This document shows, one piece after another, positions 25,928 to 42,390 of a stretch of 64,000 nucleotides of DNA. The notes below the pieces were generated by a model. The model was not told the origin of the DNA. It was given only the letters and a program-made list of their open reading frames with translations, and ran no database searches. Origin of the DNA: Pseudomonas mendocina (GTDB lineage Bacteria; Pseudomonadota; Gammaproteobacteria; Pseudomonadales; Pseudomonadaceae); NCBI RefSeq assembly GCF_900636545.1, contig NZ_LR134290.1:1984001-2048000 (forward strand), written 5' to 3'. Both the position numbers and the translations under genes were made by a program. Each line of letters begins with the position of its first letter. The stretch's first letter is position 1.

Positions 25928-27616
25928 ATGGTCATGCGCATTTCCTCCATCCAGGCCTTCAATAACGGCGTCTCCGGCCTGGGGCGCAACTATTCCAACC
26001 TGATCCGCACCCAGGAGCAGATCAGCAGCGGCAACCGCATCCTCACACCCGCTGACGACCCGGTCGCTTCGGTTCGTCTGCTGCAGCTAGAACAGCAGCA
26101 GGCCATGCTCACCCAGTACAAGAACAACCTGGTCGCTGCAGACAACAGCCTGGTCCAGGAAGAGACCACCCTCAACTCGATCAATACCGTTATGCAGCGC
26201 GTTCGCGAGCTGGCTGTGCGTGCGGGTGGCGGGGCATTGTCGGCCGACGACCGGAAATCAATCGCCAAGGAACTGGAGGAGCGTGAGGCCGAACTGCTCA
26301 ACCTTATGAACAGCCAGAACGCCCGTGGCGAGTACCTGTTCAGCGGTAACCTGGGCAAGACTGCACCCTTCGTACGCAACCCCGATGGCACCTACTCCTA
26401 CATGGGCGACGAAGGTCAACGCAGCCTGCAGGTCGCCAGTTCCACCAATGTGGCGATCAACGACAACGGCAAGCGTCTGTTCGAGAACGTGACCAACGCC
26501 AACCGCACGGTCAGCGACAGCGGTGTCAACAATCCGGCGCTGCCTTCGCCGCCGCTGCCGAGTACTACCATCGCACCAGTGCCTGCCGATGAGCAGCGGG
26601 TGTTCATGTCCCCTGGCGTGGTTGAAGATGGCCGTGCGTTCAGCGCCGACTTCCGCAATGGCGAGCCATACTCGCTCGCCTTTGTCAGTGGCAGCGAATT
26701 TCGTATCTATGATGCTTCCGGTGCCGACGTGACCTCGGAGATTCCGGGGGGCGGCAAGATCGACCCGCTGACCAGTAGCGGCAATACCATCAACTTCCGC
26801 GGTTTGCGCTTCCAGCTCGACGTGGTGCTCAAGGAAGGGGATAACCCGCAGGACCTGGATAACCTCCTGGCAGATATCCAGCCACCGGCTACGGCCGGCA
26901 CGCCTGGTGTCGGCACCCACAGTTTCACCTTGCAATCGGCGCCCACGGAATTTGCCGTGACTCGCTCGTCCACCAACACCTCGGCCGCCGTTATATCGGG
27001 GGGAGCCATCGTCAATCAGGGCGTTTTCGATGGCCAGTTCCCCACGTCAGGCGTCGTGGTGCGTTTCACCAACGCTAACGACTATGAGGTTTACGCTCAG
27101 CCTATGGGGCCGAACAGTACCGTGCTCACGACGGGCACGGTGACGGCCCCCTATCCTGCAACCTTCGACGTCTATGGCGCGCAGTTCACTATGTCCGGCC
27201 CGGCCGCTGCTGCCGGGGGCGACGAGTTCGGCGTGCAACCGCAGTTCCAAGAACAGCGCAGTATTCTCGACAGCATCGCTCGCCTGCGCCAAACGCTGGA
27301 ATCCTCGCCTACCTCACCAGCCGGTAACCTGGCTATTCGCGATGAGGTGGCCATCGCCCTGAAGAATTTCGACAACGGGGTGGCTAACGTCGATGAGGTC
27401 CGCACCGAGATCGGAGCTCGGCGCAATCTGATCGATACCACTCAGATTGATAATGAGGATGTCACCCTGGTTAACAAGTCCGTGCAGGCCGAGTTGCGCG
27501 AGCTGGATTACGCCGAGGCATTGTCGCGCCTGTCGTTCCAGACCATCATTCTCGAAGCGGCGCAGCAGAGCTACGTGAAGATCGCAGGGTTGAATCTGTT
27601 CAATCAGTTGCGTTGA
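25928..27616 (+). CDS. flgL: FlgL, hook-filament junction protein 3 (HAP3), long form
   Basis: 562 aa; the P. aeruginosa protein is about 440 aa, so this one has a longer central domain. The conserved ends are intact: MRISSIQAFNNGVSGLGRNYSNLIRTQEQISSGNRILTPADDP-type N-terminus, and EALSRLSFQTIILEAAQQSYVKIAGLNLFNQLR at the C-terminus. The central part (residues ~195-430) contains the extra sequence, including a Pro-rich segment. AAGAGG is about 9 nt before the ATG. It is the last structural gene before the glycosylation island. Confidence 0.94.
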   Translation: MVMRISSIQAFNNGVSGLGRNYSNLIRTQEQISSGNRILTPADDPVASVRLLQLEQQQAMLTQYKNNLVAADNSLVQEETTLNSINTVMQRVRELAVRAGGGALSADDRKSIAKELEEREAELLNLMNSQNARGEYLFSGNLGKTAPFVRNPDGTYSYMGDEGQRSLQVASSTNVAINDNGKRLFENVTNANRTVSDSGVNNPALPSPPLPSTTIAPVPADEQRVFMSPGVVEDGRAFSADFRNGEPYSLAFVSGSEFRIYDASGADVTSEIPGGGKIDPLTSSGNTINFRGLRFQLDVVLKEGDNPQDLDNLLADIQPPATAGTPGVGTHSFTLQSAPTEFAVTRSSTNTSAAVISGGAIVNQGVFDGQFPTSGVVVRFTNANDYEVYAQPMGPNSTVLTTGTVTAPYPATFDVYGAQFTMSGPAAAAGGDEFGVQPQFQEQRSILDSIARLRQTLESSPTSPAGNLAIRDEVAIALKNFDNGVANVDEVRTEIGARRNLIDTTQIDNEDVTLVNKSVQAELRELDYAEALSRLSFQTIILEAAQQSYVKIAGLNLFNQLR

Positions 27617-27684: not shown

Positions 27685-30012
27685 ATGATCGAACAGATTC
27701 TGGCTTTTTCCACCAAGGCGGGTTCGCTCGCGCTGCTCGACGGTCGTCTGCACAGTGCCTGCGTATTGCCGCAAGTGATCTTCAGCGTCGCGCAGTGGCG
27801 CGAGAGCGCTGAAGCCTGTCTGGTCGAGGTACGCGCCAAGGGCTGGGCCAGCATGGCCGTGCGCAGCAGCAGTAGCCGTGAGGATGGCGAACAGTCGTCG
27901 GCTGCCGGGGCGTTCGATTCCTGCCTCAACGTCGCCCCCGACGGCTTGTCGGCCGCTATCGGGCAGGTGCTCGAGTCTATGGGCGGGCAGGGCGCCAGTG
28001 CGCACGATCAGGTCTTCGTCCAGCCCATGGTCGGTGATGTGCGCATGGCCGGGGTCGGTTTTGGCCTCGATCCGGCCACGCTGGCGCCGTACTTCGTGAT
28101 CAACTACGACGAGAGCAGTGGGCGCACCGATGCCGTGACCTCCGGGCGCTCCAACGAACTGCGTACTTTCTATGCCCATCATGCCGCCTGTGAGCTGCCA
28201 CCCTCGCTGGCTCCCGTGGTAGCGCTGCTGCGCGAGTTGCAGGCGTTGTTCGGGCGCCAGGCCATCGATATCGAATTCGCCATGGACGCGCAGGCGCGAC
28301 TGTACCTGCTGCAGGTGCGACCGCTGGTGCTCGGCGCCGAACCGGTCGATGCCCAGGCGCATGGCAAGCTGGTTCGCCTGATTCACGACCGCATCGCCCA
28401 GGGCATTCGCCCGCAGCCCTTCCTGCATGGCGAGCGCACCGTGTTCGGGGTGATGCCGGACTGGAATCCGGCCGAGATCATCGGTGTGCGACCACGGCCA
28501 CTGGCTCTGTCGCTGTACCGTGAGTTGGTGACCGACATGATCTGGGCCTACCAACGCAACAACTACGGCTACCGCAACCTGCGCAGCTTCCCGCTGATGC
28601 TGCATTTTCACGGGCTGCCCTACATCGACGTGCGCGTCAGCTTCAACTCCTTCATCCCGCGCGACATCGACGGAGCCCTGGCTGACAAGCTGGTCAACTA
28701 CTACATCGAGCGCCTGTTGTCCGCGCCCAATCTGCATGACAAAGTCGAGTTCGAGATCGTTTTCTCCTGCTACACGCTGGATCTGCCGCAACGCCTGCAG
28801 GCCCTGCAGGATGCGGGGTTCACTGAGGCCGAGTGCCGACGCCTGGCCGACAGCCTGCGCGAGCTGACCAACCGTATCGTCCACAACGAAACCGGCCTGT
28901 GGCGCACCGATCGGCAGAAGCTCGACGTGCTGCTGGCCAGACGCGACGAGATCCTCGGTGCCGATACCGATCCGGTGACGCGCATCTACTGGCTGCTGGA
29001 AGACTGCCGTCGCTACGGTACGCTGCCGTTTGCCGGGCTGGCGCGGGCTGGCTTCATCGCCGTACAACTGCTGCGTTCGTTGGTCACCGTGGGCGTGCTC
29101 GACCAGAGCGAGTACGACGCGTTTCTCAACGGTCTATCCACAGTCAGTGGGCAGATGACTCAGGATCTTGCGCAACTGGATCGCACCACCTTCCTGGCGC
29201 GCTACGGCCACCTGCGGCCGGGCACTTACGACATCCTTTCGCCGCGCTACGACGAGGCGCCCGATCTGTATTTCGACTGGCACAACCTGGCGGTCGAGGC
29301 TCGCCACGACAGTGGCCGTTTCGCCCTGTCGCTGGCGCAGATGCGCGAGATCAGCCGCCTGCTCAGTGAGCACGGGTTGTCCCATGACGTGGTGGGGTTG
29401 TTCGATTTCCTCCAGGCCGGCATCGAATTGCGCGAATACGCCAAGTTCGTGTTCACGCGCAACCTGTCCGATGCGCTGTCGCTGTTCCGTGAACTGGGCC
29501 ATGACCTGGGCTTCAGCGCCGAGGACATGTCCTACGCCAACATTCAGGTGATCAAGGAGCTGCATGCCGCCAGCGCCGACCCCAGGGAGCTGATCGCTGC
29601 CAGCATCGAGGAAGGGCGCCGGCGCTACGGCGAAACCTGTCAGATCGTCTTGCCGCCGCTGATCACTCGTGCCGAAGACGCCTTCTGTTTTCACCTGCCG
29701 CAGGCCGAGCCGAACTTCATCACCCAGCGCCAGGTGACGGGTTCGGTGATGGACTACCACCAGCGCGACCAGTTGCACGGGGCCATCGTCATGATTCCCA
29801 GCGCCGACCCCGGGTTCGACTGGATCTTCTCGCACCGCATCGCTGGCTTCATCACCGCCTATGGCGGTACCAACTCGCACATGGCGATCCGCGCCAACGA
29901 ACTCGGCCTGCCTGCCGTGATCGGTGCAGGAGAGGTGCTTTATCGCAAGTGGGCTGCCGCACAGATGCTCAACATCGACTGCGCCAACCGACGCGTCGAG
30001 GTGTTGCGGTGA
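27685..30012 (+). CDS. L-glutamine kinase-like protein (Cj1418 family; PEP-synthase/PPDK-like)
   Basis: 775 aa from the ATG at 27685. Residues ~25-215 are an ATP-grasp domain of PEP-synthase type (MAVRSSSSREDGEQSSAAGAF at ~57-77; LYLLQVRPLV near 207-215). The C-terminus is the swivelling phosphohistidine domain with GGTNSHMAIRANELGLPAVIG, catalytic His732. The ~400-residue middle lacks the pyruvate/PEP-binding TIM barrel. This ATP-grasp/swivel arrangement is that of the C. jejuni capsule enzyme Cj1418, which phosphorylates the amide of L-glutamine using ATP. The assignment rests on the next two genes and the CysC-like gene also matching that pathway. Plain PEP synthase is unlikely. It ends in a 4-nt overlap with the next gene. 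Confidence 0.8.
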   Translation: MIEQILAFSTKAGSLALLDGRLHSACVLPQVIFSVAQWRESAEACLVEVRAKGWASMAVRSSSSREDGEQSSAAGAFDSCLNVAPDGLSAAIGQVLESMGGQGASAHDQVFVQPMVGDVRMAGVGFGLDPATLAPYFVINYDESSGRTDAVTSGRSNELRTFYAHHAACELPPSLAPVVALLRELQALFGRQAIDIEFAMDAQARLYLLQVRPLVLGAEPVDAQAHGKLVRLIHDRIAQGIRPQPFLHGERTVFGVMPDWNPAEIIGVRPRPLALSLYRELVTDMIWAYQRNNYGYRNLRSFPLMLHFHGLPYIDVRVSFNSFIPRDIDGALADKLVNYYIERLLSAPNLHDKVEFEIVFSCYTLDLPQRLQALQDAGFTEAECRRLADSLRELTNRIVHNETGLWRTDRQKLDVLLARRDEILGADTDPVTRIYWLLEDCRRYGTLPFAGLARAGFIAVQLLRSLVTVGVLDQSEYDAFLNGLSTVSGQMTQDLAQLDRTTFLARYGHLRPGTYDILSPRYDEAPDLYFDWHNLAVEARHDSGRFALSLAQMREISRLLSEHGLSHDVVGLFDFLQAGIELREYAKFVFTRNLSDALSLFRELGHDLGFSAEDMSYANIQVIKELHAASADPRELIAASIEEGRRRYGETCQIVLPPLITRAEDAFCFHLPQAEPNFITQRQVTGSVMDYHQRDQLHGAIVMIPSADPGFDWIFSHRIAGFITAYGGTNSHMAIRANELGLPAVIGAGEVLYRKWAAAQMLNIDCANRRVEVLR

Positions 30013-30611
30013 GGGTGGTGCTGGTCAGCCAGCGCGTTGATGTGCTGGCTGACCGCGGCGAGCGCCGCGATGCGCTGGATCAGCGCCTGGCGGACTGGCT
30101 GGCGAGCCACGGGCTTTTGCCGGTGCCGGTGCCCAATCGGGCCGAGCGCCTGGACGCCCTGTGGGCGCAAGTAAACCCCACCGCTGTGGTGCTCAGCGGC
30201 GGCAATGACCTGGCTGAGTACGGTGGCGATGCCCCGGAGCGTGACGCTGTCGAACGCGCGCTGCTGGCGCGGGCCATGGCCGAGCAGGTGCCGCTGTTTG
30301 CCCTGTGCCGTGGCGCGCAACTGCTGCTCGATGCCTTCGGCAATCGCCTGGAGCGGGTGGCCGGGCATGTTGGTACACGCCACCGTCTGCTGATCGACGG
30401 GCGTGAGACCGAGGTCAACAGCTACCACCAATGGGGTTGCCGTTCGCTGGCTGCGCCCCTGGAAGTCCTGGCACGCAGTGAAGATGGCGTGATCGAGGCC
30501 TTCTTTCACCCGCAGCTGCCGCTGCTGGGCGTGATGTGGCACCCCGAGCGGGAAGCGCCTTTCGCCGAGTTGGACGGCCTGCTCCTGAATCGCTGTTTGA
30601 ACAAGGAATGA
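30009..30611 (+). CDS. Class-I glutamine-amidotransferase-fold hydrolase, Cj1417-like (gamma-glutamyl-CDP-amidate hydrolase)
   Basis: 200 aa from the GTG at 30009, which overlaps the kinase stop (GTGA), so translation is coupled. The triad is Cys100 in ALCRGAQLL, His178 and Glu180 in MWHPERE. LSGGNDLAEYGGDAPERDAVE matches the PuuD-like subgroup. In C. jejuni, Cj1417 cleaves gamma-glutamyl-CDP-amidate (made by the cytidylyltransferase) to glutamate plus CDP-amidate. Routine annotation would say gamma-glutamyl-GABA hydrolase, but no putrescine genes are present and both neighbours belong to the phosphoramidate pathway. Confidence 0.8.
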   Translation: MRVVLVSQRVDVLADRGERRDALDQRLADWLASHGLLPVPVPNRAERLDALWAQVNPTAVVLSGGNDLAEYGGDAPERDAVERALLARAMAEQVPLFALCRGAQLLLDAFGNRLERVAGHVGTRHRLLIDGRETEVNSYHQWGCRSLAAPLEVLARSEDGVIEAFFHPQLPLLGVMWHPEREAPFAELDGLLLNRCLNKE

Positions 30612-30617
30612 GCTTCC

Positions 30618-31358
30618 ATGACACGTGCCATCATCCTCGCTGCCGGGCGCGGCAGCCGCATGGGCGAGCTGACCGCCGAGCAGCCCAAGTGCTTCGCTCG
30701 TCTGCACGGGCGTCGCCTGCTGGACTGGCAACTGCAGGCGCTACGGGGCGCCGGTATCGAGCGCCTGGCCCTGGTGCGGGGGTATCGCGGCGAGTGCTTT
30801 GACGAGCCGCTGACCTACTTCGAAAACCCCCGCTGGCAACAGAGCAACATGGTGCGCACCCTGCTGGCCGCAGATGCCTGGCTGGCGGCGGAGGCTTGCA
30901 TCGTCAGCTACAGCGATATCTTCTACAGTGCCGCCACCGTGGCGACCCTGAGCCGGGTCAAGGCCGACCTGGCGATTGCCTACGATCCGCACTGGCATGC
31001 GCTGTGGTCACAACGTTTTGCCGACCCGCTGGCCGATGCCGAGAGCTTCCGCCTAGATGCCAGCGGCAATCTGGCCACCATTGGCGAGCGTTGTCAGAGC
31101 GTCGCCGAGATCGAGGGGCAGTACATGGGCCTGCTCAAGTTCACCCCGTCCGGCTGGGGGCAGGTGCGCGAGTTGTTGCTGCAGCGAGGCGACGAGGCGA
31201 TAGACCGTCTGGACATGACCAGCCTGCTGCGCTTGCTGCTGCAGGCCGGTCTGCCAATCGCCGTGTCGCCGGTACAAGGCCCTTGGGGAGAGGTGGACGC
31301 TGCCGATGACCTGGCGCTCTATCACCGGCTGTTCACCCCAGAGGCGCTACACGCCTGA
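30618..31358 (+). CDS. Nucleotidyltransferase, Cj1416-like (CTP:phosphoglutamine cytidylyltransferase)
   Basis: 246 aa. It starts TRAIILAAGRGSRMGELTAEQPKCF, the NTP-transferase nucleotide loop, with a metal-binding Asp in SYSDIFY (residues ~96-102) and a second acidic motif GEVDAADDL near the C-terminus. It belongs to the sugar-phosphate or phosphocholine cytidylyltransferase family. In the C. jejuni pathway the corresponding enzyme couples L-glutamine phosphate to CTP. It is the third gene of a tight operon (6-nt gap) and ends 12 nt from a convergent operon. A sugar-1-phosphate substrate is the alternative. Confidence 0.78.
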   Translation: MTRAIILAAGRGSRMGELTAEQPKCFARLHGRRLLDWQLQALRGAGIERLALVRGYRGECFDEPLTYFENPRWQQSNMVRTLLAADAWLAAEACIVSYSDIFYSAATVATLSRVKADLAIAYDPHWHALWSQRFADPLADAESFRLDASGNLATIGERCQSVAEIEGQYMGLLKFTPSGWGQVRELLLQRGDEAIDRLDMTSLLRLLLQAGLPIAVSPVQGPWGEVDAADDLALYHRLFTPEALHA

Positions 31359-31370
31359 ACGACTGCGTGT

Positions 31371-32096
31371 TCAGTCTGTCGCGCCGGGCAGGCTGAGTAG
31401 CGCCAGGTGCTTGAGCACCGGGTGAATGACGTAGTAGGTGTTGCCCTGTTCGGCGTCCTGTTGCAACACCACGTCCAGTTCGCCGCTGGCCTGATAGCGG
31501 CGCAGCACCTCCAGCAGCAGGTCGGCGCGGATCGCCGTGTCGTAGCGGCGGTCGATGTCGGTGCCCAGTGGAGGTGCCGGGTAGCGTTTGCGGGCCAGTA
31601 CCGGGCCGGTGTCGATTTGAGTGTCGAGCAGAATGGCGCTGGCGGCGCAGACGCCTTCTTCCAGCAAGCTGTAGTAGACGGTCGTACTGCCACGGTAGTC
31701 GGGCAGCCAGCCGCTGTGTACATGCAGCAGCGGGATGCCCAGTTCGATCAGGGGCGGCTTGACGATCTGCCCGCCATACCCGGAGAAGATCACCAGACGC
31801 GGTGCCCGCTCACGCACGGCATTGATGACCTGCTGATCGTTTATGTCGCGTGTCGCCAGGCAGGTGATGGGTACATCGCAGTCGGCCAGGGTGCGGCTGA
31901 GGGGGATGCCCAGATCCGGCAGCAGAACCCCCATCAGCTCTCGGGCCGGCTCGCTCGGCGTCGTGGGGGATTGCGGCGCCTCGCCGAGCAGCAAGGCGTG
32001 GGAGGGCATCAGGCCATGGGCAGCCAGGGTCTGCACGTAAGCCTGGCTGCGCGCACTGTGCGCTGCGATCAGCAGAACGTCGTCGAGGTGGGTCAT
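31371..32096 (-). CDS. Formyltransferase-fold protein with altered catalytic triad
   Basis: 241 aa from the ATG at 32096, which overlaps the upstream gene (ATGA). The N-terminal Rossmann-like formyltransferase fold carries HVHSGWLPDYRGSTTVYYSLLEEG and ILLDTQIDTGPVL. In canonical N-formyltransferases the triad is Asn-His-Asp; here the Asn position is His125, with His127 and Asp162 conserved. Possible roles are N-formylation of the 3-amino sugar made by the adjacent Fdt-like genes (a WlaRD/QdtF-type activity), modification of the phosphoramidate, or a non-formyl reaction. It is the last gene of a four-gene minus-strand operon with the CysC-like kinase. Function uncertain. Confidence 0.7.
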   Translation of the reverse strand: MTHLDDVLLIAAHSARSQAYVQTLAAHGLMPSHALLLGEAPQSPTTPSEPARELMGVLLPDLGIPLSRTLADCDVPITCLATRDINDQQVINAVRERAPRLVIFSGYGGQIVKPPLIELGIPLLHVHSGWLPDYRGSTTVYYSLLEEGVCAASAILLDTQIDTGPVLARKRYPAPPLGTDIDRRYDTAIRADLLLEVLRRYQASGELDVVLQQDAEQGNTYYVIHPVLKHLALLSLPGATD

Positions 32097-32668
32097 GGGG
32101 CGAGCTCCACGTTGGCCTGTGATGCAATGCGAGCGACCCAATCCTGTTCGGCCGCGATCAGCCAGGCGAGCTGAGCGCCCTGGGGCGGGCTCAGGCGCGG
32201 GAGAATCGAGATCAGGCTGTCGATGACCTTGAGCAGGCCATTGAGAAAGGGCAGGGCGCCAGGCTGCTCGGCTTGATGTAGGCACAGCACGGCGAATTGC
32301 AGGTAGATATTCAGGTCATCGTAGCCGTTATCGGCGACCGCCTTGAAGTTCACGTCATAGCGGCGGTGCAGGCGCTTGCTGACCTCGAAGCGTTGCAGCA
32401 AACGTTCGGCCAGGCGCCGCTTGCCCGGTGCATCCGCGGCCGCGTGCAACAGGTCGGCCAGCAGTGCAGCTGTATTCGCAGGGTGTTCGTGGTGTTCGGC
32501 GGCTACGGGTAACGGCACGGCCTGCGCTGGAGGCAGTTGCGCCAGCGCCGTCTGACGGCTCGCACGCCACGCCGGGAAGAAGGCCGTGCCGTGGTACTGA
32601 CTGTAGAAGTAGGTGTTGCGCTCCTCGAGCCGATCACCCTGGCTGTAGGGGTAGTCGATGTCGCTCAT
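32093..32668 (-). CDS. Conserved-context hypothetical protein, 191 aa
   Basis: I do not recognise this protein. It starts MSDIDYPYSQGDRLEERNTYFYSQYHG; the rest is largely helical, with a hydrophobic segment (NIYLQFAVLCLHQAE) and another (GLLKVIDSLISIL), but no signal peptide or clear transmembrane helix. Its start overlaps the CysC-like stop and its stop overlaps the formyltransferase start, both by 4 nt, so it is translated in strict step with them. The context points to a role in making or transferring the phosphoramidate or the sugar, for example as a partner subunit. Confidence 0.75.
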   Translation of the reverse strand: MSDIDYPYSQGDRLEERNTYFYSQYHGTAFFPAWRASRQTALAQLPPAQAVPLPVAAEHHEHPANTAALLADLLHAAADAPGKRRLAERLLQRFEVSKRLHRRYDVNFKAVADNGYDDLNIYLQFAVLCLHQAEQPGALPFLNGLLKVIDSLISILPRLSPPQGAQLAWLIAAEQDWVARIASQANVELAP

Positions 32669-33186
32669 GCCATCGACCCCTGTGCTCGTTGCAGGATGTC
32701 ACGGGCCAATTCGGCTATGTCGGTCGGTTGGCTGGTGTCGATTTCCAGATCCGCTGCGCTGGGTGGCGGGAAGGGTATGTCCACGCCCACCATGTCGCTC
32801 ATCTCGCCGGCCAGCGCCTGGCGGTAGAGCCCCTTGGTGTCGCGCTCGACCAGCGTCTGCATCGGCGGGTTGAGGTAGACCTCGTAGTAGTGGCGAAAGC
32901 GTGTGCGGTTGAGCGCGCGCAGATCGGGGAAGATCGACAGGATGCTGCATACCACGTTGATCTCCTGCGCATCGAGCCAGGCGCACAGCTCGAAGATGCG
33001 CTCGGCGTTGAGACGCCGCCCTGCCAGGCTGTAGTCCGCGGCCTGGGTATCCTGGCGGAAGATGCGCCGAACCTCGTCGCCATCCACCAGCAGGGTATTG
33101 GCTGCCTGCTGCTTCCACTGGCGGGTGATTTCGCGACCGAGTGTTGTCTTGCCCGAGCCGGACAGGCCGATCAACCAGATGACCAT
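32665..33186 (-). CDS. CysC-like P-loop kinase, probable CDP-amidate kinase (Cj1415-like)
   Basis: 173 aa from the ATG at 33186. APS-kinase fold: P-loop GLSGSGKTT (residues 7-15), VDGDEVR (34-40) and ERDTKGLY (114-121). Genuine APS kinases normally sit with cysD/cysN; none is nearby. In C. jejuni the CysC-like Cj1415 phosphorylates the 3'-hydroxyl of the cytidine in CDP-amidate, the last known activation step. Three other pathway homologues lie 1.3-5 kb away. Overlaps the phosphotransferase-like gene upstream by 1 nt and the unknown gene downstream by 4 nt. Confidence 0.78.
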   Translation of the reverse strand: MVIWLIGLSGSGKTTLGREITRQWKQQAANTLLVDGDEVRRIFRQDTQAADYSLAGRRLNAERIFELCAWLDAQEINVVCSILSIFPDLRALNRTRFRHYYEVYLNPPMQTLVERDTKGLYRQALAGEMSDMVGVDIPFPPPSAADLEIDTSQPTDIAELARDILQRAQGSMA

Positions 33187-34250
33187 CAGCCTCTCCCTGC
33201 CAGGGAGCGGGCACTGTTGGCGATCGCCACGGCGGCTACCTGACCAGCGTAACCGTAGAACGGCGCGAAGTAGTAATGGCTGAGGGTCTTGCGGATCGGT
33301 CGCTGGGCCTCCCACAGGCTGGCATCCTCCAACAACTCTTCGAGGCGACCGCTGTGCTGGTTACCAAGGTGAGGCAGGTACTTGCGCAGCCAGATGTCCG
33401 AGGAGTCCTCGCCCATCAGCGGATCGGCTTCGGCCTTGGGCAGGTCGAGCAGCAGCACATTGCGATCGGTGTAGATGCCGCCGAAGGCGGAGCCACCGTA
33501 GTCGCACAGCAGGAAGTCGGCGAGCTGGAACAGCACGACGTTGTCGATATGTTCGCGGATCACGCAGGTGAAACGCTCCAGCTCGCGCATGCGCGCCGGC
33601 TCGTCGGTGATGGTGATCGGGTGGGGTTTGACGATGACGTTGTAGCGCGCCTGCAAACGTGCGACGGCGGCAGCGAACAGGTCGATCGAGCTGAGCGTGC
33701 TCCAGGTCGGCAGCCACACCACGGTCTGCCGATTGGGGGCGAGTTTCAGCTCGGTCAGGCGCGCTGTGCGATCCAGCGGCTGGTTGAAGAAACGGTCGAA
33801 GCGGGGGTAGCCCATCTGGATCTTCAGCGTGTCCTGGCAGAATTCCAGGTGCTCAGCCTGATAAGGGCCGAAGCAGAGGATGCTGTCGTACACCTGGTTC
33901 CAGGACTGGAAGTTCCAGCCAGCCTTGCCGTTGGCGTACATGAACCGCAGGTTGTAGCGGCCGATGGACTTGGGCAGGTAGGGCGAGTCTGCGCCACGCA
34001 GGTAATGCTGGGGGAAGTTCGACACCAGGGTGGTGTAGCGCTCCTTGCGGGCGAGCATTTCGCGTGCGTCGCGCCATGGCAACTGATGCCGCTGGCAGCC
34101 GGCGACCACGGCGTCGATGTCCTGCTGCGTCTTGCCGGTAACGGCGATCTCCACGCTGCCTGTCGGCAGGTGCTGCCAGACCGCGTGGTAGTGATTGAAC
34201 ATCTCAGGGTTGTGAATCAGAAAACCGAAGCGTTCGAGTTCGCTGGCCAT
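33186..34250 (-). CDS. CDP-glycerol glycerophosphotransferase-like protein, candidate phosphoramidate transferase
   Basis: 354 aa, GT-B-like fold. CDP-glycerol:glycerophosphotransferase family marks are present: VVWLPTWSTLSS, NVIVKPHPITI and ADFLLCDYGGSAFGGIYTDRNVLLLDLP. Family members transfer a phospho-group from a CDP-activated donor to a glycan hydroxyl. It is first in the operon and overlaps the CDP-amidate-kinase-like gene, so the cytidine-activated phosphoramidate is an attractive donor. No membrane segment, consistent with a cytosolic enzyme acting on flagellin or a nucleotide sugar. A true glycerol-phosphate or sugar transferase remains possible. Confidence 0.72.
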   Translation of the reverse strand: MASELERFGFLIHNPEMFNHYHAVWQHLPTGSVEIAVTGKTQQDIDAVVAGCQRHQLPWRDAREMLARKERYTTLVSNFPQHYLRGADSPYLPKSIGRYNLRFMYANGKAGWNFQSWNQVYDSILCFGPYQAEHLEFCQDTLKIQMGYPRFDRFFNQPLDRTARLTELKLAPNRQTVVWLPTWSTLSSIDLFAAAVARLQARYNVIVKPHPITITDEPARMRELERFTCVIREHIDNVVLFQLADFLLCDYGGSAFGGIYTDRNVLLLDLPKAEADPLMGEDSSDIWLRKYLPHLGNQHSGRLEELLEDASLWEAQRPIRKTLSHYYFAPFYGYAGQVAAVAIANSARSLAGRG

Positions 34251-34378: not shown

Positions 34379-34843
34379 ATGGCATCGATCCATCCGTCCG
34401 CGGACGTCAAAAGCCACTCGATTGGTGAGGGCACCTCGGTCTGGCAGTTCGTGGTGATCCTCGCGCAGGCGCGCATCGGTCGCGACTGCAACATCAACGC
34501 CCACTGCTTCATCGAGAACGACGTGGTGCTCGGTGATCGGGTTACGGTGAAATGCGGCGTATACCTGTGGGACGGCCTGCGTATCGCCGACGATGTTTTC
34601 ATCGGTCCCAACGCCACCTTCACCAATGATCGATTGCCGCGTTCCAAGCGATATCCCGACAGCTTCCCGCAGACCGTGATCGAACGTGGCGCCTCCATTG
34701 GTGCCGCGGCGGTCATCCTGCCAGGCCTGACCATCGGCGCCGGTGCCATGGTCGGCGCCGGCGCGGTGGTGACCCGCGATGTTCCTGCCCGCGCGCTGGT
34801 CGTTGGCAACCCTGCACGTATCGTGCGTTACCTGGATGAGTGA
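34379..34843 (+). CDS. Hexapeptide-repeat N-acyltransferase, FdtC/QdtC/WlbB-like
   Basis: 154 aa from the ATG at 34379. Left-handed beta-helix repeats run throughout ([59 protein letters not shown]), ending [12 protein letters not shown]. WlbB/QdtC-type enzymes acetylate the 3-amino group of nucleotide sugars with acetyl-CoA. The aminotransferase gene follows after 1 nt, so the two act in sequence. It is divergent from the phosphotransferase-like gene across a 128-bp region that must hold both promoters. Confidence 0.83.
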
Positions 34844-34844
34844 C

Positions 34845-35954
34845 ATGTTTCCTTTTCTCGATCTGGCCGGGATCAACCGGCGCGATGAAGCAGCACTGAC
34901 CGAGGCGTTTCAGCGGGTGCTGCGTTCCGGCTGGTATGTACTGGGTACCGAAGTCGCCGCGTTCGAGGCCGAGTACGCGGCTGCCTGTGGAGTGGCGCAT
35001 GCCATCGGCGTGGGCAACGGCCTGGATGCACTGACCCTGATTTTGCGTGGCTATCGGCAGTTGGGGCGTCTGGCCGAGGGTGACGAGGTGATCCTGCCCG
35101 ACAACAGCTTTGTCGCCACCGCGCTGGCCGTCAGTGAGGCTGGGCTGACGCCGGTCTTGGTCGAGCCCGAGGCGGACACGTTCAACATCGATCCGGCTGC
35201 CGTCGAGACCGCAATCAGCCCGCGCACACGGGCAATCATCGCCGTGCACCTGTACGGGCGTCTGGCTGACATGCGGCGTCTGCGCACACTCGCCGATCAG
35301 CACGGGCTGTTGCTGATCGAGGATGCGGCTCAGGCACATGGCGCAGTGGATGCCCGCGGGCACGCTGCGGGTGCCCTCGGCGATGCGGCAGGCTTCAGCT
35401 TTTTTCCGGTAAAGAACCTTGGCGCACTTGGCGATGCCGGTGCTCTGACCACCAACGACGATGATCTGGCCGAGCAGGTGCGCAAGCTGCGTAACTACGG
35501 CTCCAGCCGCAAGTACGTGCACGAGTTGCAGGGCATCAATTCGCGCCTTGACGAGTTGCAGGCTGCGCTTTTGCGGGTAAAGCTGGCGCGTCTGGTTGAT
35601 GATGCCCTGGCCCGACGCGACCTGGCGGCGCGTTATCTGGCCGGCATAGACAACCCGCATCTGCAACTGCCCCAGGCTCCGCACGTGTCCGGAAGCCACG
35701 TCTGGCACCAGTTCGTCATACGCTGCGAGGCACGAGAGGCCTTGCAGGCGCATCTCGAGCGTCACGGCGTACCGAGCCTGATCCACTACCCGATTCCCAT
35801 CCATCGCCAGGCCGCTTACCCCGAGTTTGCCGACCGGCACCTGCCGCTCTCGCAACGCCTGGCTGGCGAGGTGCTCAGCTTGCCGCTATACCCGGGAATG
35901 GCAAATGAATGGGTCGAGCAGACCATTGAAGCGTGCAACGCTTTCCGCGTCTGA
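34845..35954 (+). CDS. DegT/DnrJ/EryC1 PLP aminotransferase, FdtB/QdtB-like
   Basis: 369 aa from the ATG at 34845 (MFPFLDLAGI, the usual start of this family); another ATG nine nt earlier is possible. PLP Lys190 lies in FFPVKNLGALGDAGAL, where most relatives have GKNLGALGDGGA. DNSFVATALAVSEAGLTPVLVE and IEDAAQAHGA are family blocks. It should transfer an amino group to C3 of the dTDP-3-keto-6-deoxyhexose produced by the FdtA-like isomerase (36102-36512). C4 transamination is the alternative. Confidence 0.85.
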   Translation: MFPFLDLAGINRRDEAALTEAFQRVLRSGWYVLGTEVAAFEAEYAAACGVAHAIGVGNGLDALTLILRGYRQLGRLAEGDEVILPDNSFVATALAVSEAGLTPVLVEPEADTFNIDPAAVETAISPRTRAIIAVHLYGRLADMRRLRTLADQHGLLLIEDAAQAHGAVDARGHAAGALGDAAGFSFFPVKNLGALGDAGALTTNDDDLAEQVRKLRNYGSSRKYVHELQGINSRLDELQAALLRVKLARLVDDALARRDLAARYLAGIDNPHLQLPQAPHVSGSHVWHQFVIRCEAREALQAHLERHGVPSLIHYPIPIHRQAAYPEFADRHLPLSQRLAGEVLSLPLYPGMANEWVEQTIEACNAFRV

Positions 35955-36101: not shown

Positions 36102-36512
36102 ATGTCTCTTCAGCACTGCAAGATCATCGATCTGCCAATCGTCGAGGATCGGCGTGGCAACCTCACTTTCATCGAGGGAGGGCGACACATTCCCTTCGAT
36201 ATCCAGCGTGTCTACTACCTCTATGACGTTCCCGGCGGCTCTCACCGCGGCGGCCATGCTCACAAGGGGCTGCACCAGCTGTTGATCGCCATGTCGGGCA
36301 GTTTCGACATCCTGCTGGATGATGGGCGAACCAAGTTCAAGTACCACCTCAACCGTTCCTATTACGGTCTTTATATTCCGCCGATGATCTGGCGCGAGAT
36401 CGACAACTTCTCCAGCGGCTCGGTGTGCATGGTGCTGGCGTCCGAGCACTACAGCGAAGACGATTACTACCGCGACTACGACCAGTTCTCCCTGGCTGCC
36501 AACGGCAAGTAA
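36102..36512 (+). CDS. FdtA/QdtA-like dTDP-4-keto-6-deoxyglucose 3,4-ketoisomerase
   Basis: 136 aa single cupin domain, the size of FdtA/QdtA. RRGNLTFIEG, IPFDIQRVYYLYDVPGG, RGGHAHKGLHQ with the catalytic His pair, IPPMIWREI and SEDDYYRDYDQF are family blocks. It moves the keto group from C4 to C3 of dTDP-4-keto-6-deoxyglucose (made by RmlA/RmlB, not in this window). Whether the product is galacto (to Fuc3N) or gluco (to Qui3N) depends on few residues and cannot be called here. A TTG four codons upstream is a less likely start. Confidence 0.85.
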   Translation: MSLQHCKIIDLPIVEDRRGNLTFIEGGRHIPFDIQRVYYLYDVPGGSHRGGHAHKGLHQLLIAMSGSFDILLDDGRTKFKYHLNRSYYGLYIPPMIWREIDNFSSGSVCMVLASEHYSEDDYYRDYDQFSLAANGK

Positions 36513-36583: not shown

Positions 36584-39500
36584 ATGCCCCAGGGAAGTCA
36601 TCTGCCAGACGCAGTGGTCAGCGCCAGGGTCGTTTCCGCCCGAAGCGCCAAGGGCTGTGTCGATCTGACCGAGCTGGCTGCCGCCGAGAGCTGGTCGCCG
36701 GCACCGCTGGAGATGGTGGGATTCTCTCTGCCGGAAAGCGTGCGGCAGGCCCGGCAGCGCATGTTGGTTCAGTACCGCGGACGCTTTCACGATGTGCGCC
36801 TGGTCGCCGGCATGGCCGGTATTGGCGATATCGCCAATGGTGAGTATGTCTGCGACGGCGTTTACGACAACCTTGGGCGAGTGAATAACGCCTGGTATGA
36901 AAAACACGGGTTGCGCGTCGATGACAACGGCACGTGCGCGTTTTTCGCCGGCAAGGGCGAGTCGTTGCAGGTGGCCAATGCCATCAGCTTCTTCGGCTGG
37001 GAAAACGGCAACTATGCGCACTGGTTGAGCGAGAAGCTCGGGCGCTTCTACTGGATCGAGCAGGCCGACCTGCCACACGATACCGTGGTGCTGGTCGAGG
37101 CTGGCTTGCCGGCTTCTATCATGGATGCCCTGGCTTTGTTCTGGCCGCGTGAGCGTACGCTTTGCGTGCCGCCGGGAAGTGCTTGCCAGGTGGCTGTGCT
37201 GCACCATTTCTCCGACACCGCCGATATCTGGGAGCCGCGTGCCGGCTACGTCTATCGCGGTGACGAATACCATCTCTATCCGCCGGCCATTGCCTGGATG
37301 GCCAGCCAGGTCAAGGCCCGCTGCGCTGCGGTCGAGGGCCAGGACAAGGCCTACCTGATTCGGCCGCCGGGCGGCAATGGCCGTACTATCGTCAACCAGC
37401 AGGAGCTGATCCGCGAGCTCAGTCGCGATGGCTTTCAGGCCTTTCAGCCGGAGGTGCGCGACTTTGCCTCGCAGGTGCGTGCGCTAGCCGGTTGCGAACT
37501 GGCGATCCTCGGTTCTGGCGCGGCTGCCGCCAATCTTCTGTGGATGCCCCGTGGCGGCACCCTGGTGATGCTGATCCAGGATAATCCGCAGATGTGGTAC
37601 TGGTTCTTCCATGCCCTGGCTGCTGCGGTGGGCGTGCGTTTGGTCTATCACCCGGTCAAGGGCTTGCCTGGCACCCACAGCGTTGTCTACCACTGGAACG
37701 TAGAAATTCCCATCGAGGCCCTGCTCCAATGGCTGGCCCAGGATGCACAGCGCGCCAGCCAGGCGCTGCCTGAGCAGCCGCTGGGCGTCGCGACTTTGCA
37801 GAGCGAGCTCGCCGGGCGGCGCCGCAGAACGCTGCCCGAGCCGCTTTCTGTCGAGCCACAGGAGGAGGGCGTAGATGTCACCGTTGCGGTGATGTCCTAC
37901 AACAATGCCGCATTCCTGGCTCAGACCCTCGATTCGATCCTGGCTCAGGAGGGTGTACGGCTCGAGGTGGTGGTCTACGACGACTGCTCGAAAGACGACA
38001 GCCTGGAGGTTCTGAAACGCTATGCCGGCGAGCCGCGCCTGCATTTCGAGGTCAACCCCCAGAACCTGGGCATGACCGGCAACTACAACAAGTGCGTGGC
38101 GGCCGGGCGCGGTCGTTACGTGGTGGTACTGGGTTCCGATGACGTGCTCTACCCGGGCCACCTGGCCTCGTTGGTCGAGGCCATGGATGCCAGTCCGCAG
38201 GCTGCGCTGGGCTATACCCAGTGCTACTGGATCGACGAGCAGGGGGTACGCCAGCAGTACGCGGATCACCCAGGGCACCGGCGCGCATCGTATTGCGGTG
38301 GGCGCGACGAAGTAATCGACCTGCTGTGTTTCGACAACTACATCACGCCTTCCGCCGCCATGTTGCGCCGTAGTGCACTGCATCTCGTCGCACTGCCGGA
38401 AGGCGGCATCCACCGCCACGACATGCTCGCTGGCGATTGGGAACTATGGATTCGCCTGGCCCGTGTGGCGCCCGATTTCGTATTCCTGCGCCAACCCAGC
38501 GTCGGCTATCGGGTGCACGGCGGACAGATCTCCAAGAGTTTCTATGGCAGTGACCGTCCGCTGCGCGAGCACACCGAGATTCTCGAGATGTGCCTGGATG
38601 ACGCGCCGACCCGTGTGCGCATGCGAGGCGCTGCGCAACCGATCTGGCAGCTCTACCGCCAGCGTTTCGAGGCCTATCCGGCCGAGGTTCGGGCGCCGTT
38701 GCAGGTGCGCATCGATGCCGTCCGTCGTGCGCTGCTGGAGCAGAACAGCCATGATGAGGTTGCGACGTGCCTGTTCTCCATCATCCTCACCACCTACAAC
38801 CGCGCCGATTTGTTGAAGGATGCTCTGGCCAGCGTCGGCAACCAGACCTTGCGCGATTTCGAAGTCATTCTGATCAACGATAACGGCGAGCCGGTTGAAC
38901 ACCTGCTGGCCGATTACGCGTTTCCCATCACCTATATCCGCCAGGGCCGCAACCAGGGCTTGTCAGCCGCGCGTAACGCCGGCCTCAAGCTGGCGCGTGG
39001 GCGCTACATCGTCTACCTCGACGATGACGACATCTATCTGCCCAACCACCTTGCCGTGCTGGCCGAGGCCTTCGAGCAGCATCCAGATAGCGTCATTTAT
39101 ACCGGCGTCGAGTACGTCAATGAAAAGCTGGAGGATGGCCAGCGTATCGAGCTTGGTCGTGACCAGCCGTTCAAGCACGAGGTGTTCGACCGCGATCGCC
39201 TGTTCGTGCAGAACTACATCCCGGTCAACACCTGGGCACATCCGCGCCAGATGCTGGCCACTGTCGGTGAGTTCGACACCGGGCTGGCGGCCTTCGAAGA
39301 CTGGGACATGCTCCTGCGTATGGCCACGCGCTACCCGTTCGTGCACGTACCGACGGTGACCAGCGAAGTCCACACCCGTGCCCCGGGCGCCGGCGGCGAC
39401 CACATGCTCGGTCGTGAGCGCAAGAACTTCCCGGCGCTGTACCGCGAGCTCTACGAGCGCTACGGCGGTTCCGCCAGCGAGGGGCTGCAGCGTGGTCGTC

Positions 39501-42142
39501 AGCAGATGCTCGAAAGCCTGGGGGAACGACCCAAGGATGGGCTTGCGCAGTGGCTGGCCAAACGCTTGCCGACCGCAGCTGAAAACCGCCTGATCTTCGA
39601 CTATCTGCAGGGGCACCAGGGCGGGCCGCTGATTGGTGTGGTGGTAGTCGATACCGAGGGGCAGTCCGAGGCGCTGATGGCCACGCTCAAGAGCCTGCTC
39701 GGCGAGCGCTGCCTCTATGCGACGCTGCGTATTCTGGTGATCACCCCGGCCGACGCGCCCGCCACCTCGGCGGCGGACAAGCTGCATTTCCTGAAAATGG
39801 CCGACGAGCCTCTGGTTGCGCAGATCAACCGCGCGGTCGAGGCCTGCGATTGCCAGTGGTTCATGTTGGCGCGTGCCGGCGATGAGTTTACCCAGAGCGG
39901 TCTGATGGTCGCCGGGCTCGAACTGGCTGGTAACCCCGAATGCCGCGCGGTGTATGGCGATCAACTTCAACGCCTGCCGGACGGCAGCTTGGGCGGGGCC
40001 TTCCTGCCGGGCTTCAACCTGGATCTGCTGCTCAGCTTCCCGATGGTGATGGCGCGTCATTGGTTGTATCGCCGCGATCTGTTCCTCGCTGTCGGTGGCT
40101 TCGACTCGGCGTTCCCCGATGCTTTTGAGTTCGAACTGCTGACCCGCTTCATCGAACAGGAAGGTCTGGCTGGCCTGGGTCATATCGATGAGCCGCTGTT
40201 GATCACCGAAGCGCCTACGCTGCGTGACAATCCTGACGAGCGCCGGGTGATCGAGCGTCACCTGGGTAATCGAGGCTATCAGGCTCAGGTGCTGCCCGGC
40301 TTGCCGGGACGTTATCGGGTGCACTACGGCCATGGCGCTGCTCCCCTGGTGTCGATCATTCTCGCCACGGATGTGCCGTTGGCCGCTTTGCAGCGCTGTA
40401 CCGACAGCTTGCTGGAAAAGACGGCCTACGGTCATTACGAGCTGTTGCTGGCCGATAGCGGCACGCGGGCTGACGTCAGCGCTTGGTTGCGTGAGGTGGC
40501 GTTACTCGGTGACGACAAGGTTCGCGTGTTTCCCTCAGAAGCTGGGCTCGCGCAGAATCGCGCTGCCGAGCAGGCACGTGGCGAATACCTGCTGCTGCTT
40601 TCTGGCGAAGCGGCCATCGTCAATGCTGACTGGCTGGATGAGTTGCTCAACCACGCTCAGAGGCCGGAGGTCGGTGTGGTCGGCGGCAAGCTGCTGACGC
40701 CGGACGGACGTATCGCCCAGGCTGGGCTGCTGCTGGGTGTCAACGGCCCGGCGACGGCCGCCTTCGCCGGTGAGGCGTTGGATGCGGCGGGCTATATGCA
40801 ACGTCTGCAGGTGGATCAGAACTACAGCGCCGTCGGTGAGCAATGCCTGATGGTGCGTGCCGAAGTGTTCCGCCAGGTTGGTGGGATGGATGCCGGGCTG
40901 AATGCCTTCCGCGATGTGGATCTCTGCTTGCGCGTGCGCGATGCCGGGTATCTGACGGTCTGGGCGGCAAACGCGATCATCCTGCATGAGGCGGAGCAGG
41001 TACGGGCCAGTACCGCGGCAGAAGATCAGCTCTACGAGCGTTACCTGCCGCAGCTGGCAAACGATCGTGCATACAACCGTAATCTGGCATTGAGCGGGCG
41101 GGGCTTCGATCTGGAAAGCGATGTGTCCCTGACCTGGCGTCCTCTGAGTTGGCGTCCTTTACCGGTGGTATTGGCCCACCCGGCCGACCCCTGGGGATGT
41201 GGTCATTACCGCGTCATCCAGCCGCTAACGGCGCTGAAGTCTCAGGGGTTGGCCGATGGCACTCTGTCCATGGGGTTGTTGCAGGTAACAGACCTGGAGC
41301 GCTACGACCCGGACGTGGTCGTGTTGCAGCGCCAGATTGGCGATGATCGCCTGGAGGCCATGCGCCGTATCAAGCGTTTCTCGCGGGCGTTCAAGGTCTA
41401 CGAGCTGGACGACTATTTACCCAATCTGCCGCTGAAAAGCGTGCATCGGGATCAGATGCCCCGCGATATCCTCAAGTCTCTGCGTCGCGGTCTGGAGTTT
41501 GTCGACCGCTTCGTAGTCTCCACTCAGCCATTGGCAGAGGCGTTCGCCGGTTTGCATGGTGATATCCGTGTAATCGAGAACCGTCTGCCAGTGAAATGGT
41601 GGAAGGGGCTGCAAAGCCAGCGTCGGCGAGGGCGTAAGCCTCGGGTCGGCTGGGCTGGTGGGGTCAGCCATACCGGCGATCTGGATCTGATCGTCGATGT
41701 CGTCCGCGAGTTGGCGGGAGAGGTCGAGTGGGTATTTATGGGCATGTGTCCGGATGCTATCCGGCCCTTCATTAATGAATTTCACGGCGGTGTCGATATC
41801 GAGTCTTACCCGGTTGCGCTCGCGAATCTGGATCTCGATCTGGCGCTGGCGCCGGTGGAGGCCAATCTGTTCAACGAGTGCAAGAGCAACTTGCGCCTGC
41901 TGGAGTATGGCGCCTGCGGCTTTCCGGTGATCTGCAGTGACTTGGTGTGTTATCGCGGAGATCTTCCTGTGACGCGGGTGAAAAATCGCTTCCGCGATTG
42001 GGTCGACGCCATCCGCATGCATATCAGCGATCTGGATGCCACTGCTCAGGCGGGTGATCGCCTGCGCGAAGCGGTTTATCGCGACTGGATGCTGGACGGT
42101 GAGAACCTGGAACGCTGGCGCAAGGCCTGGATGCCTGACTGA
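36584..42142 (+). CDS. Giant multi-domain glycosyltransferase, probable flagellin glycosyltransferase
   Basis: 1852 aa. In order: a GT61/DUF563 domain (~90-390, NYAHWLSEKLGRFYWI); GT2 domain 1 (~430-690, VTVAVMSYNNAAFL, acidic motif GSDD near 516); GT2 domain 2 (~728-960, FSIILTTYNRADLL, YLDDDD near 812); a degenerate GT2 (~1015-1230) with ARAGDE at the acidic-motif position; a fourth GT2-like domain (~1255-1500, VSIILATDVPL) with LSGE at that position; and a GT-B/GT4-like C-terminal domain (~1526-1850, WGCGHYRV, RVGWAGGVSHTGDLDLI, RLLEYGACGFPVIC). It lies between flgL and fliC, where P. aeruginosa keeps the flagellin glycosyltransferase gene fgtA, so sequential assembly of a flagellin glycan is inferred. 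CGGAG precedes the ATG. Confidence 0.85.
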   Translation: MPQGSHLPDAVVSARVVSARSAKGCVDLTELAAAESWSPAPLEMVGFSLPESVRQARQRMLVQYRGRFHDVRLVAGMAGIGDIANGEYVCDGVYDNLGRVNNAWYEKHGLRVDDNGTCAFFAGKGESLQVANAISFFGWENGNYAHWLSEKLGRFYWIEQADLPHDTVVLVEAGLPASIMDALALFWPRERTLCVPPGSACQVAVLHHFSDTADIWEPRAGYVYRGDEYHLYPPAIAWMASQVKARCAAVEGQDKAYLIRPPGGNGRTIVNQQELIRELSRDGFQAFQPEVRDFASQVRALAGCELAILGSGAAAANLLWMPRGGTLVMLIQDNPQMWYWFFHALAAAVGVRLVYHPVKGLPGTHSVVYHWNVEIPIEALLQWLAQDAQRASQALPEQPLGVATLQSELAGRRRRTLPEPLSVEPQEEGVDVTVAVMSYNNAAFLAQTLDSILAQEGVRLEVVVYDDCSKDDSLEVLKRYAGEPRLHFEVNPQNLGMTGNYNKCVAAGRGRYVVVLGSDDVLYPGHLASLVEAMDASPQAALGYTQCYWIDEQGVRQQYADHPGHRRASYCGGRDEVIDLLCFDNYITPSAAMLRRSALHLVALPEGGIHRHDMLAGDWELWIRLARVAPDFVFLRQPSVGYRVHGGQISKSFYGSDRPLREHTEILEMCLDDAPTRVRMRGAAQPIWQLYRQRFEAYPAEVRAPLQVRIDAVRRALLEQNSHDEVATCLFSIILTTYNRADLLKDALASVGNQTLRDFEVILINDNGEPVEHLLADYAFPITYIRQGRNQGLSAARNAGLKLARGRYIVYLDDDDIYLPNHLAVLAEAFEQHPDSVIYTGVEYVNEKLEDGQRIELGRDQPFKHEVFDRDRLFVQNYIPVNTWAHPRQMLATVGEFDTGLAAFEDWDMLLRMATRYPFVHVPTVTSEVHTRAPGAGGDHMLGRERKNFPALYRELYERYGGSASEGLQRGRQQMLESLGERPKDGLAQWLAKRLPTAAENRLIFDYLQGHQGGPLIGVVVVDTEGQSEALMATLKSLLGERCLYATLRILVITPADAPATSAADKLHFLKMADEPLVAQINRAVEACDCQWFMLARAGDEFTQSGLMVAGLELAGNPECRAVYGDQLQRLPDGSLGGAFLPGFNLDLLLSFPMVMARHWLYRRDLFLAVGGFDSAFPDAFEFELLTRFIEQEGLAGLGHIDEPLLITEAPTLRDNPDERRVIERHLGNRGYQAQVLPGLPGRYRVHYGHGAAPLVSIILATDVPLAALQRCTDSLLEKTAYGHYELLLADSGTRADVSAWLREVALLGDDKVRVFPSEAGLAQNRAAEQARGEYLLLLSGEAAIVNADWLDELLNHAQRPEVGVVGGKLLTPDGRIAQAGLLLGVNGPATAAFAGEALDAAGYMQRLQVDQNYSAVGEQCLMVRAEVFRQVGGMDAGLNAFRDVDLCLRVRDAGYLTVWAANAIILHEAEQVRASTAAEDQLYERYLPQLANDRAYNRNLALSGRGFDLESDVSLTWRPLSWRPLPVVLAHPADPWGCGHYRVIQPLTALKSQGLADGTLSMGLLQVTDLERYDPDVVVLQRQIGDDRLEAMRRIKRFSRAFKVYELDDYLPNLPLKSVHRDQMPRDILKSLRRGLEFVDRFVVSTQPLAEAFAGLHGDIRVIENRLPVKWWKGLQSQRRRGRKPRVGWAGGVSHTGDLDLIVDVVRELAGEVEWVFMGMCPDAIRPFINEFHGGVDIESYPVALANLDLDLALAPVEANLFNECKSNLRLLEYGACGFPVICSDLVCYRGDLPVTRVKNRFRDWVDAIRMHISDLDATAQAGDRLREAVYRDWMLDGENLERWRKAWMPD

Positions 42143-42296: not shown

Positions 42297-42390
42297 AGAG
42301 ATCGAATGCGAACTCTCTGGGCGTCTGAGCATGCAGGCCCGAGCTCGCAAGCTCAGACAAACGGTTCTAAGGTCATCTGGAGGCAATACC

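Follow-up and report, generated by a model that had tools for sequence, protein, structure and literature searches.

A putative phosphoramidate cassette in a flagellin glycosylation island of Pseudomonas mendocina

The region between flgL and the flagellin gene fliC of Pseudomonas mendocina holds a flagellin glycosylation island, which we analysed within a stretch of 64,000 nucleotides (herein referred to as the window; NCBI RefSeq assembly GCF_900636545.1, contig NZ_LR134290.1, positions 1,984,001 to 2,048,000). The initial annotation had recognized four genes in such an island as counterparts of Cj1415-Cj1418, the Campylobacter jejuni enzymes that make the activated phosphoramidate of the capsule. 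Their frames are indeed open and their families are those claimed: a glutamine-kinase-like protein (G1), a class I amidotransferase (GATase, G2), a nucleotidyltransferase (NTase, G3) and a CysC-like protein (G6); the interval does sit between flgL and fliC. The inventory was incomplete, however, in that three co-inherited genes (31371-32668 and 33186-34250), the likely transferase among them, had been overlooked: a formyltransferase-fold protein (G4), a helical protein of an unnamed family (G5) and a TagF-like protein (G7). We consider it probable that these seven genes form a cassette that makes an activated phosphoramidate, likely to be attached to a flagellin sugar, and that G4 and G5 modify the phosphoramidate in place of an O-methyl group. 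Gene families, active-site motifs, gene order, co-inheritance and position in the island are the observations from which each reaction, the acceptor and the identity of the cap are predicted here.

The cassette is arranged as two packed and convergent runs. G1, G2 and G3 occupy 27685-31358 on the forward strand, where the GTG start of G2 overlaps the stop of G1, and G7, G6, G5 and G4 run on the reverse strand from 34250 down to 31371 with successive overlaps of 1, 4 and 4 bases; the four activation genes hence do not constitute one operon, G1-G3 lying on one strand and the CysC-like G6 on the other. All frames of the cassette are open and catalytic motifs are retained, and the kinase gene is present once in this genome, between flgL and fliC.

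To compare the four activation proteins with Campylobacter, the locus of C. jejuni strain GP013, in which kinase, GATase, NTase and CysC genes are consecutive, was used as the reference in place of Cj1415-1418 of NCTC 11168, and the phosphoenolpyruvate (PEP) synthase, a PuuD-type protein, MurU and the adenylyl-sulfate (APS) kinases of the host served as comparators, all pairs being scored with one program. The GP013 GATase itself matches NF045546 with 331 bits, above the cut-off of 250, and the sole match of a frame adjoining these genes is NF058596 (O-methyl phosphoramidate transferase; 329 bits, cut-off 600). All four P. mendocina proteins score higher against their Campylobacter counterparts than against the host paralogues, so that none was found to lie nearer to PEP synthase, PuuD, phosphocholine cytidylyltransferase or true APS kinase, the outcome by which the initial annotation was to be refuted. 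G1 scores 647 bits against the C. jejuni kinase (43.5% identity across 765 aligned residues) and 27 against the host PEP synthase; it matches NF004508 with 981 bits (cut-off 501; C. jejuni kinase, 1173), and the histidine of the kinase motif GGxNSHMxIR is retained in 43/43 relatives, one of which carries A for N. G3 scores 132 bits against the C. jejuni NTase (36.3% identity), 25 against host MurU and 32 against the solved phosphocholine cytidylyltransferase 1jyk, its assignment being by homology alone, with no specific model. G2 reaches 78 bits against the C. jejuni GATase (31.4% identity) and 51 against the host PuuD-type protein; its Cys and His-x-Glu motifs are retained and its best NCBIfam match is NF045546 (gamma-glutamyl-CDP-amidate hydrolase), at 115 bits and thus below the cut-off of 250, with the PuuD model at 56.

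For G6 the pairwise scores (97 bits against C. jejuni CysC, at 35.8% identity, and 76 against a host APS kinase) are accompanied by a reciprocal pattern on two protein models. G6 passes NF004041 (154 bits, cut-off 127) and misses the apsK model TIGR00455 (105 bits, cut-off 138.7), as does the C. jejuni CysC protein in pattern, whereas the two true APS kinases of the host show the reverse (NF004041, 117 and 109 bits; apsK, 269 and 236 bits). A tree likewise sets G6 and 30 other CysC proteins encoded at kinase loci, that of C. jejuni among them, apart from three host members of the APS kinase family (100/100, with long branches). NF004041 is titled adenylyl-sulfate kinase, and the title of the model therefore does not name the function of G6. 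Taken together, sequence comparison strongly supports an activation pathway that is complete by homology.

Pfam places the four activation proteins in broad families only, and the expectation that each gene alone would be misannotated is borne out by plasmid records, in which relatives are named PEP-utilizing enzyme, gamma-glutamyl-gamma-aminobutyrate hydrolase family, phosphocholine cytidylyltransferase family and adenylyl-sulfate kinase; the name glutamine kinase is already carried by some JGI records of G1 relatives. Among 72,556 plasmid records, 14 carry kinase homologues at E<=1e-60, from Azospirillum, Vibrio alfacsensis, Cupriavidus, Agrobacterium and further taxa (L098-L101 among them); they are not named as glutamine kinases there, and on the V. 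alfacsensis plasmid a CDP-glycerol glycerophosphotransferase gene directly follows the NTase.

Relatives of G1 are numerous (6727 at E<=1e-20 among 7996 scored candidates in a protein search), and the kinase is found in 35 of 398 genomes sampled from the genus (E<=1e-50; herein the Pseudomonas genomes) and in 8 of 369 genomes sampled from the class (E<=1e-100, the genome of the window counted). We compared 43 loci, comprising the window, 34 other loci of the genus, seven other loci of the class and C. jejuni; these loci are related, and the counts that follow exceed the number of independent events. The expected co-conservation holds in full for GATase and NTase, which accompany the kinase in 43/43 loci, making chance association unlikely, and in part for CysC (31/43 by profile scans).

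Four cassette types can be distinguished. Type A (15 loci; L047-L051, L067-L076) has the order c15-CysC-methyltransferase-kinase-GATase-NTase. Type B has the order G7-CysC-G5-G4-kinase-GATase-NTase in one direction in five loci (L056, L057, L058, L059, L078) and is divided between two runs in the window and in L042-L045. In type C a second NTase-like domain is fused to the kinase, and a G4 relative and a TagF-like gene are also present (L052-L055, L077, L083); L084 carries the NTase-kinase fusion without the other type C genes. Type D (L060:6853-13771, L061, L079, L080), found in four genomes of the genus, lacks CysC and joins kinase-GATase-NTase to an exporter of the major facilitator superfamily, a CDP-alcohol transferase and an ATP-grasp ligase, and by its gene content looks like a cluster for a phosphoramidate small molecule. 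The remaining loci (L046, L062, L081, L082, L085-L087) fall outside these types.

Several features of types A and C were observed in passing. The c15 protein (~390-420 residues), which stands ahead of CysC in all 15 type A cassettes, is weakly collinear with G7, and the one member tested has no Pfam or NCBIfam match. The fused glutamine kinases (such as L052:8187-11354, and those of L053, L054, L055, L077, L083 and L084) have stop-to-stop frames of 1022-1081 residues, and the usual N-terminal signature is degenerate in their N-terminal NTase-like domain. In the type C loci L052-L055, the G4 relative and the TagF-like gene flank a gene for a protein of ~530-560 residues (L052:3664-5256), whose L052 member, the one on which Pfam was run, contains a YidC-type 60KD_IMP domain.

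Among the overlooked genes, G7 is the candidate transferase. It matches PF04464 (Glyphos_transf; 33 bits, cut-off 22), and its predicted structure (pLDDT 94.6) retrieves TagF at Foldseek ranks 1-12 (E 1.8e-11, TM-score 0.62-0.66), at ~15% identity and with other GT-B enzymes close behind in the ranking. His20, K208-x-H210-P211 and a DYGG motif are invariant across 53 sequences. At E<=1e-20, G7 occurs in 13 of the Pseudomonas genomes, ten of them kinase-positive (the same ten that carry G5) and three kinase-negative, with 31-32% identity. No locus combines two of the three families of candidate transferases (Glyphos in 18 loci, c15 in 15, CDP-alcohol transferase in four and none in six of the 43).

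G5 has no match in Pfam or NCBIfam. At E<=1e-5 it occurs in ten Pseudomonas genomes, all among the 35 that are kinase-positive (hypergeometric 7e-12, with relatedness not corrected), in a search that scored at most eight candidates per genome and in this way missed weak type C relatives. In L086, whose genome belongs to a different family within the class, a single open frame joins G5 to G4. Contigs of equal length (165,811 bases) suggest that in Chitinilyticum litopenaei the kinase, G5 and G7 share one contig. Near-identical G5 or G7 proteins are also present in Ectopseudomonas oleovorans or toyotomiensis. The original profiles had been iterated over the same loci, and three were therefore rerun as independent profiles: G5 then gives 11 strong matches (145-294 bits) and six weak ones (20-31), G7 gives ten strong (460-543 bits) and eight weak ones (14-47), each match being a locus, and the NTase fusion is found in seven (76-92 bits), an eighth being doubtful (L087, 26).

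The catalytic set canonical for formyltransferases is Asn-x-His together with an Asp. G4, which matches the family, retains the Asp and carries His-x-His in place of Asn-x-His, as do 18/18 relatives. Across the 43 loci, G4 is present in 18 and a Campylobacter-type methyltransferase in 19; none has both and six have neither. One further flgL-fliC island with a different gene set (L046) has the methyltransferase and a TagF-like gene (Pfam, 35 bits; independent profile, 14 bits), without G4 and G5. Since G4 and the methyltransferase never occur together, and L046 has the latter without G4 or G5, G4 and G5 plausibly replace the methyl cap, and they may install a new cap where Campylobacter has O-methyl; that this cap is a formyl group is a guess drawn from the fold of G4. 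No match to the Campylobacter-type methyltransferase (c14_MT) is found in the island, and O-methylation of the phosphoramidate in the manner of Campylobacter is thus not expected.

We hypothesize that the encoded proteins (Table 1) act in sequence, with the activation steps modelled on the C. jejuni pathway as described in passages of reviews. G1 would phosphorylate the amide of glutamine with ATP, G3 would couple the resulting N-phosphoglutamine to CTP, G2 would remove glutamate to give CDP-amidate and G6 would phosphorylate the 3'-hydroxyl of the latter. G7, as a GT-B enzyme of TagF type, would then take the phosphoramidate from its CDP donor and attach it to a hydroxyl group on a flagellin sugar. 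This sugar is itself predicted to be made with FdtA (G10), G9 and G8 and to be placed by G11. Where Campylobacter uses O-methylation, the phosphoramidate would here be modified by G4 together with G5.

Table 1. Genes of the flagellin glycosylation island and its borders, in window positions (aa, amino acids).
Gene	Predicted product	Position	Strand	Basis or remark
flgL	Hook-filament junction protein	25928..27616	+	Left border of the island; Flagellin_N PF00669
G1	Glutamine-kinase-like, 775 aa, PPDK_N and PEP-utilizers mobile domain	27685..30012	+	NF004508, C. jejuni identity
G2	Gamma-glutamyl-CDP-amidate-hydrolase-like class I GATase, 200 aa	30009..30611	+	NF045546, kept motifs
G3	Phosphoglutamine-cytidylyltransferase-like NTase, 246 aa	30618..31358	+	NTP_transf_3 PF12804, C. 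jejuni score
G4	Formyltransferase-fold protein, H-x-H for N-x-H, 241 aa, candidate cap-forming enzyme	31371..32096	-	Formyl_trans_N PF00551
G5	Helical protein, 191 aa, family unnamed, putative G4 partner	32093..32668	-	Co-occurrence, fusion to G4 in L086, model pLDDT 88.8
G6	CDP-amidate-kinase-like, CysC/APS kinase family, 173 aa	32665..33186	-	NF004041, tree
G7	TagF-like, 354 aa, candidate phosphoramidate transferase	33186..34250	-	PF04464, Foldseek, invariant residues
G8	Hexapeptide acetyltransferase, putatively FdtC-like	34379..34843	+	Hexapep PF00132; FdtC-like judging by neighbours
G9	DegT/DnrJ aminotransferase, putatively FdtB-like	34836..35954	+	PF01041, 352 bits; FdtB-like judging by neighbours
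G10	FdtA, predicted sugar ketoisomerase	36102..36512	+	FdtA PF05523, 194 bits
G11	1852-aa multidomain glycosyltransferase, GT61 and three GT2 stretches	36584..42142	+	
fliC	Flagellin	42331..43875	+	Right border; Flagellin_N, Flagellin_C

The frame of fliC opens 20 codons ahead of the usual start, with MALTVNTN from residue 21, and the true start is probably at ~42391.

Both the chemical activity of these proteins and attachment of the phosphoramidate to flagellin are what we infer from sequence. For G7, the proposed transfer from a CDP donor to a flagellin sugar follows the precedent of two flagellar proteins. In passages of one study, the proposed role of the TagF-like CD0244 of Clostridioides difficile is to transfer phosphothreonine from CDP-threonine onto flagellin GlcNAc, and in a CD0244 insertion mutant peptides with GlcNAc alone appear, an older conflicting result also being mentioned (PMC10714395); passages of another state that PA1091 of P. 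aeruginosa PAO1 carries the same kind of domain as CD0244 and that the flagellin glycan contains a phospho-group (PMC11833859).

The cassette lies between flgL and fliC in 6 of the 35 kinase-positive Pseudomonas genomes. An alternative acceptor is lipopolysaccharide (LPS) or another surface glycan, adjacency to fliC then reflecting shared storage of sugar genes, and such a role would be in keeping with the absence of flgL or fliC matches at the type A loci and at the five one-direction type B loci (L056-L059, L078), for which ~19 kb around these free-standing cassettes was fetched. C. jejuni, too, places its phosphoramidate on capsule, and the source passages report phosphoramide on the lipo-oligosaccharide (LOS) of Xanthomonas campestris and on a Shewanella LPS. 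We nevertheless regard another polymer as unlikely in P. mendocina, where the sole kinase copy of the genome sits between flgL and fliC and the five closest relatives hold the same place, including L046 with its different gene set. As type B cassettes also occur away from flagellar genes, flagellin is to be taken as the likely acceptor in this island and not for the cassette in general.

It is also conceivable that the phosphorus-nitrogen (P-N) compound is an intermediate consumed by G4 and G5, so that phosphoramidate is absent from the final flagellin glycan (which might instead bear, for instance, a plain phosphodiester or the product of an N-donor reaction). The departure of G4 from formyltransferases at the catalytic position, consistent in its relatives, means that its product is not predictable from its family, and leaves room for this scenario; it strikes us as quite improbable, however, as a TagF-type gene is present in 17/18 loci with G4, in keeping with the phosphorus group itself being transferred.

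Compared with L042 (9108-10383), a segment of ~1.28 kb is missing at 31327-31383 of the window. In L042-L045 this segment holds c16, a methyltransferase-domain gene of 401 residues between G3 and G4, of which there is no trace within the window, and its loss from P. mendocina when four relatives keep it could mean that intact-looking genes yield no complete product in this strain. With cassette frames open, catalytic motifs retained and c16 in none of the free-standing cassettes, we judge such an incomplete pathway very unlikely. Next to no credence is due to the view that the four activation proteins are ordinary relatives of PEP synthase, PuuD, phosphocholine cytidylyltransferase and APS kinase serving phosphocholine or sulfate decoration, which public record names and broad Pfam families would permit but which is already disfavoured by the higher scores of all four against the C. 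jejuni locus and by the low score of G3 against 1jyk.

Several observations weigh against a flagellin-directed, newly capped phosphoramidate as we propose it. G2 falls short of the NF045546 equivalog cut-off, and its margin over the host PuuD-type protein is modest, as is that of G6 over the host APS kinase; with independent profiles the evidence is weak for G7 in 8/18 loci and for G5 in 6/17. The exclusivity of G4 and methyltransferase is based on few lineages. NF058596, the model of the CJJ1420-type transferase, is not among the matches listed for G1-G11 (the best 25 for G3 and G8), and the free-standing type B cassettes, as described above, lack flagellar neighbours. Passages of a Campylobacter study further state that, among 13 strains carrying cj1416-1418 orthologues, four lacked a signal of O-methyl phosphoramidate (MeOPN) (PMC3907429), so the genes alone do not prove the product.

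The closest known system is the MeOPN pathway of C. jejuni (Cj1415-Cj1418 with methyltransferases and Cj1421/1422-type transferases), which shares with the cassette, by homology, the four activation enzymes (G2 being assigned less firmly), as well as the kinase-GATase-NTase order and the active-site motifs. It differs in lying at a capsule locus and not in a flagellin island; the P. mendocina system is without a c14-type methyltransferase, has the TagF-like G7 for the CJJ1420-type transferase and adds G4 and G5. The Type A flagellin system of C. difficile (CD0240-0244) and the b-type system of P. aeruginosa PAO1 (PA1088-1091) resemble the cassette in that a TagF-like phosphotransferase is proposed to modify a flagellin sugar from a CDP-linked phospho-donor; the donor proposed for them in the source passages is CDP-threonine or an N-methylated form of it, whereas here CDP-amidate is predicted, with a glutamine-kinase branch. 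TagF itself (CDP-glycerol glycerophosphotransferase) shares with G7 the predicted GT-B fold, as its top structural match, and the invariant His and KxHP, but G7 is distant in sequence and its predicted donor is CDP-amidate. Sugar N-formyltransferases share PF00551 and the Asp with G4, which has His where their catalytic Asn stands. The phosphoramide described in passages on X. campestris and Shewanella is likewise a P-N group carried by a surface glycan of bacteria other than Campylobacter, there on core lipo-oligosaccharide and here, as predicted, on flagellin.

In this flagellin island the activation pathway is thus accompanied by a transferase that is credible and a cap that may be new, and the system appears to join two known things. 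More tentatively, Pseudomonas flagella could carry a new P-N chemotype, in which the N or O of a phosphoramidate is capped by the His-x-His protein G4 and the helical G5. CDP-amidate or its 3'-phosphate would be the donor from which a TagF-like enzyme moves the group onto a flagellin sugar. The cassette would then be built of exchangeable modules, both caps (methyl or G4/G5) and CDP-dependent transferases, serving flagella, other surfaces and small molecules across Proteobacteria. We hold this broader picture to be possible but less likely than not.

The enzymes of phosphoramidate synthesis were worked out for the Campylobacter capsule, and one review, in the passages concerned, calls the glutamine kinase C. 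jejuni-specific (PMC9561416); here the whole activation branch is found, by homology, in flagellin islands of other bacteria. This corrects how the genes of a widespread set are named (as PEP-utilizing enzyme, PuuD-type hydrolase, phosphocholine cytidylyltransferase and APS kinase), and two uncharacterised cassette proteins are brought out, together with a transferase that has direct flagellar precedent and represents a candidate family for phosphoramidate transfer from a CDP donor. A new flagellin modification is predicted, by which a chemical tag of the capsule type would likely also decorate flagella.

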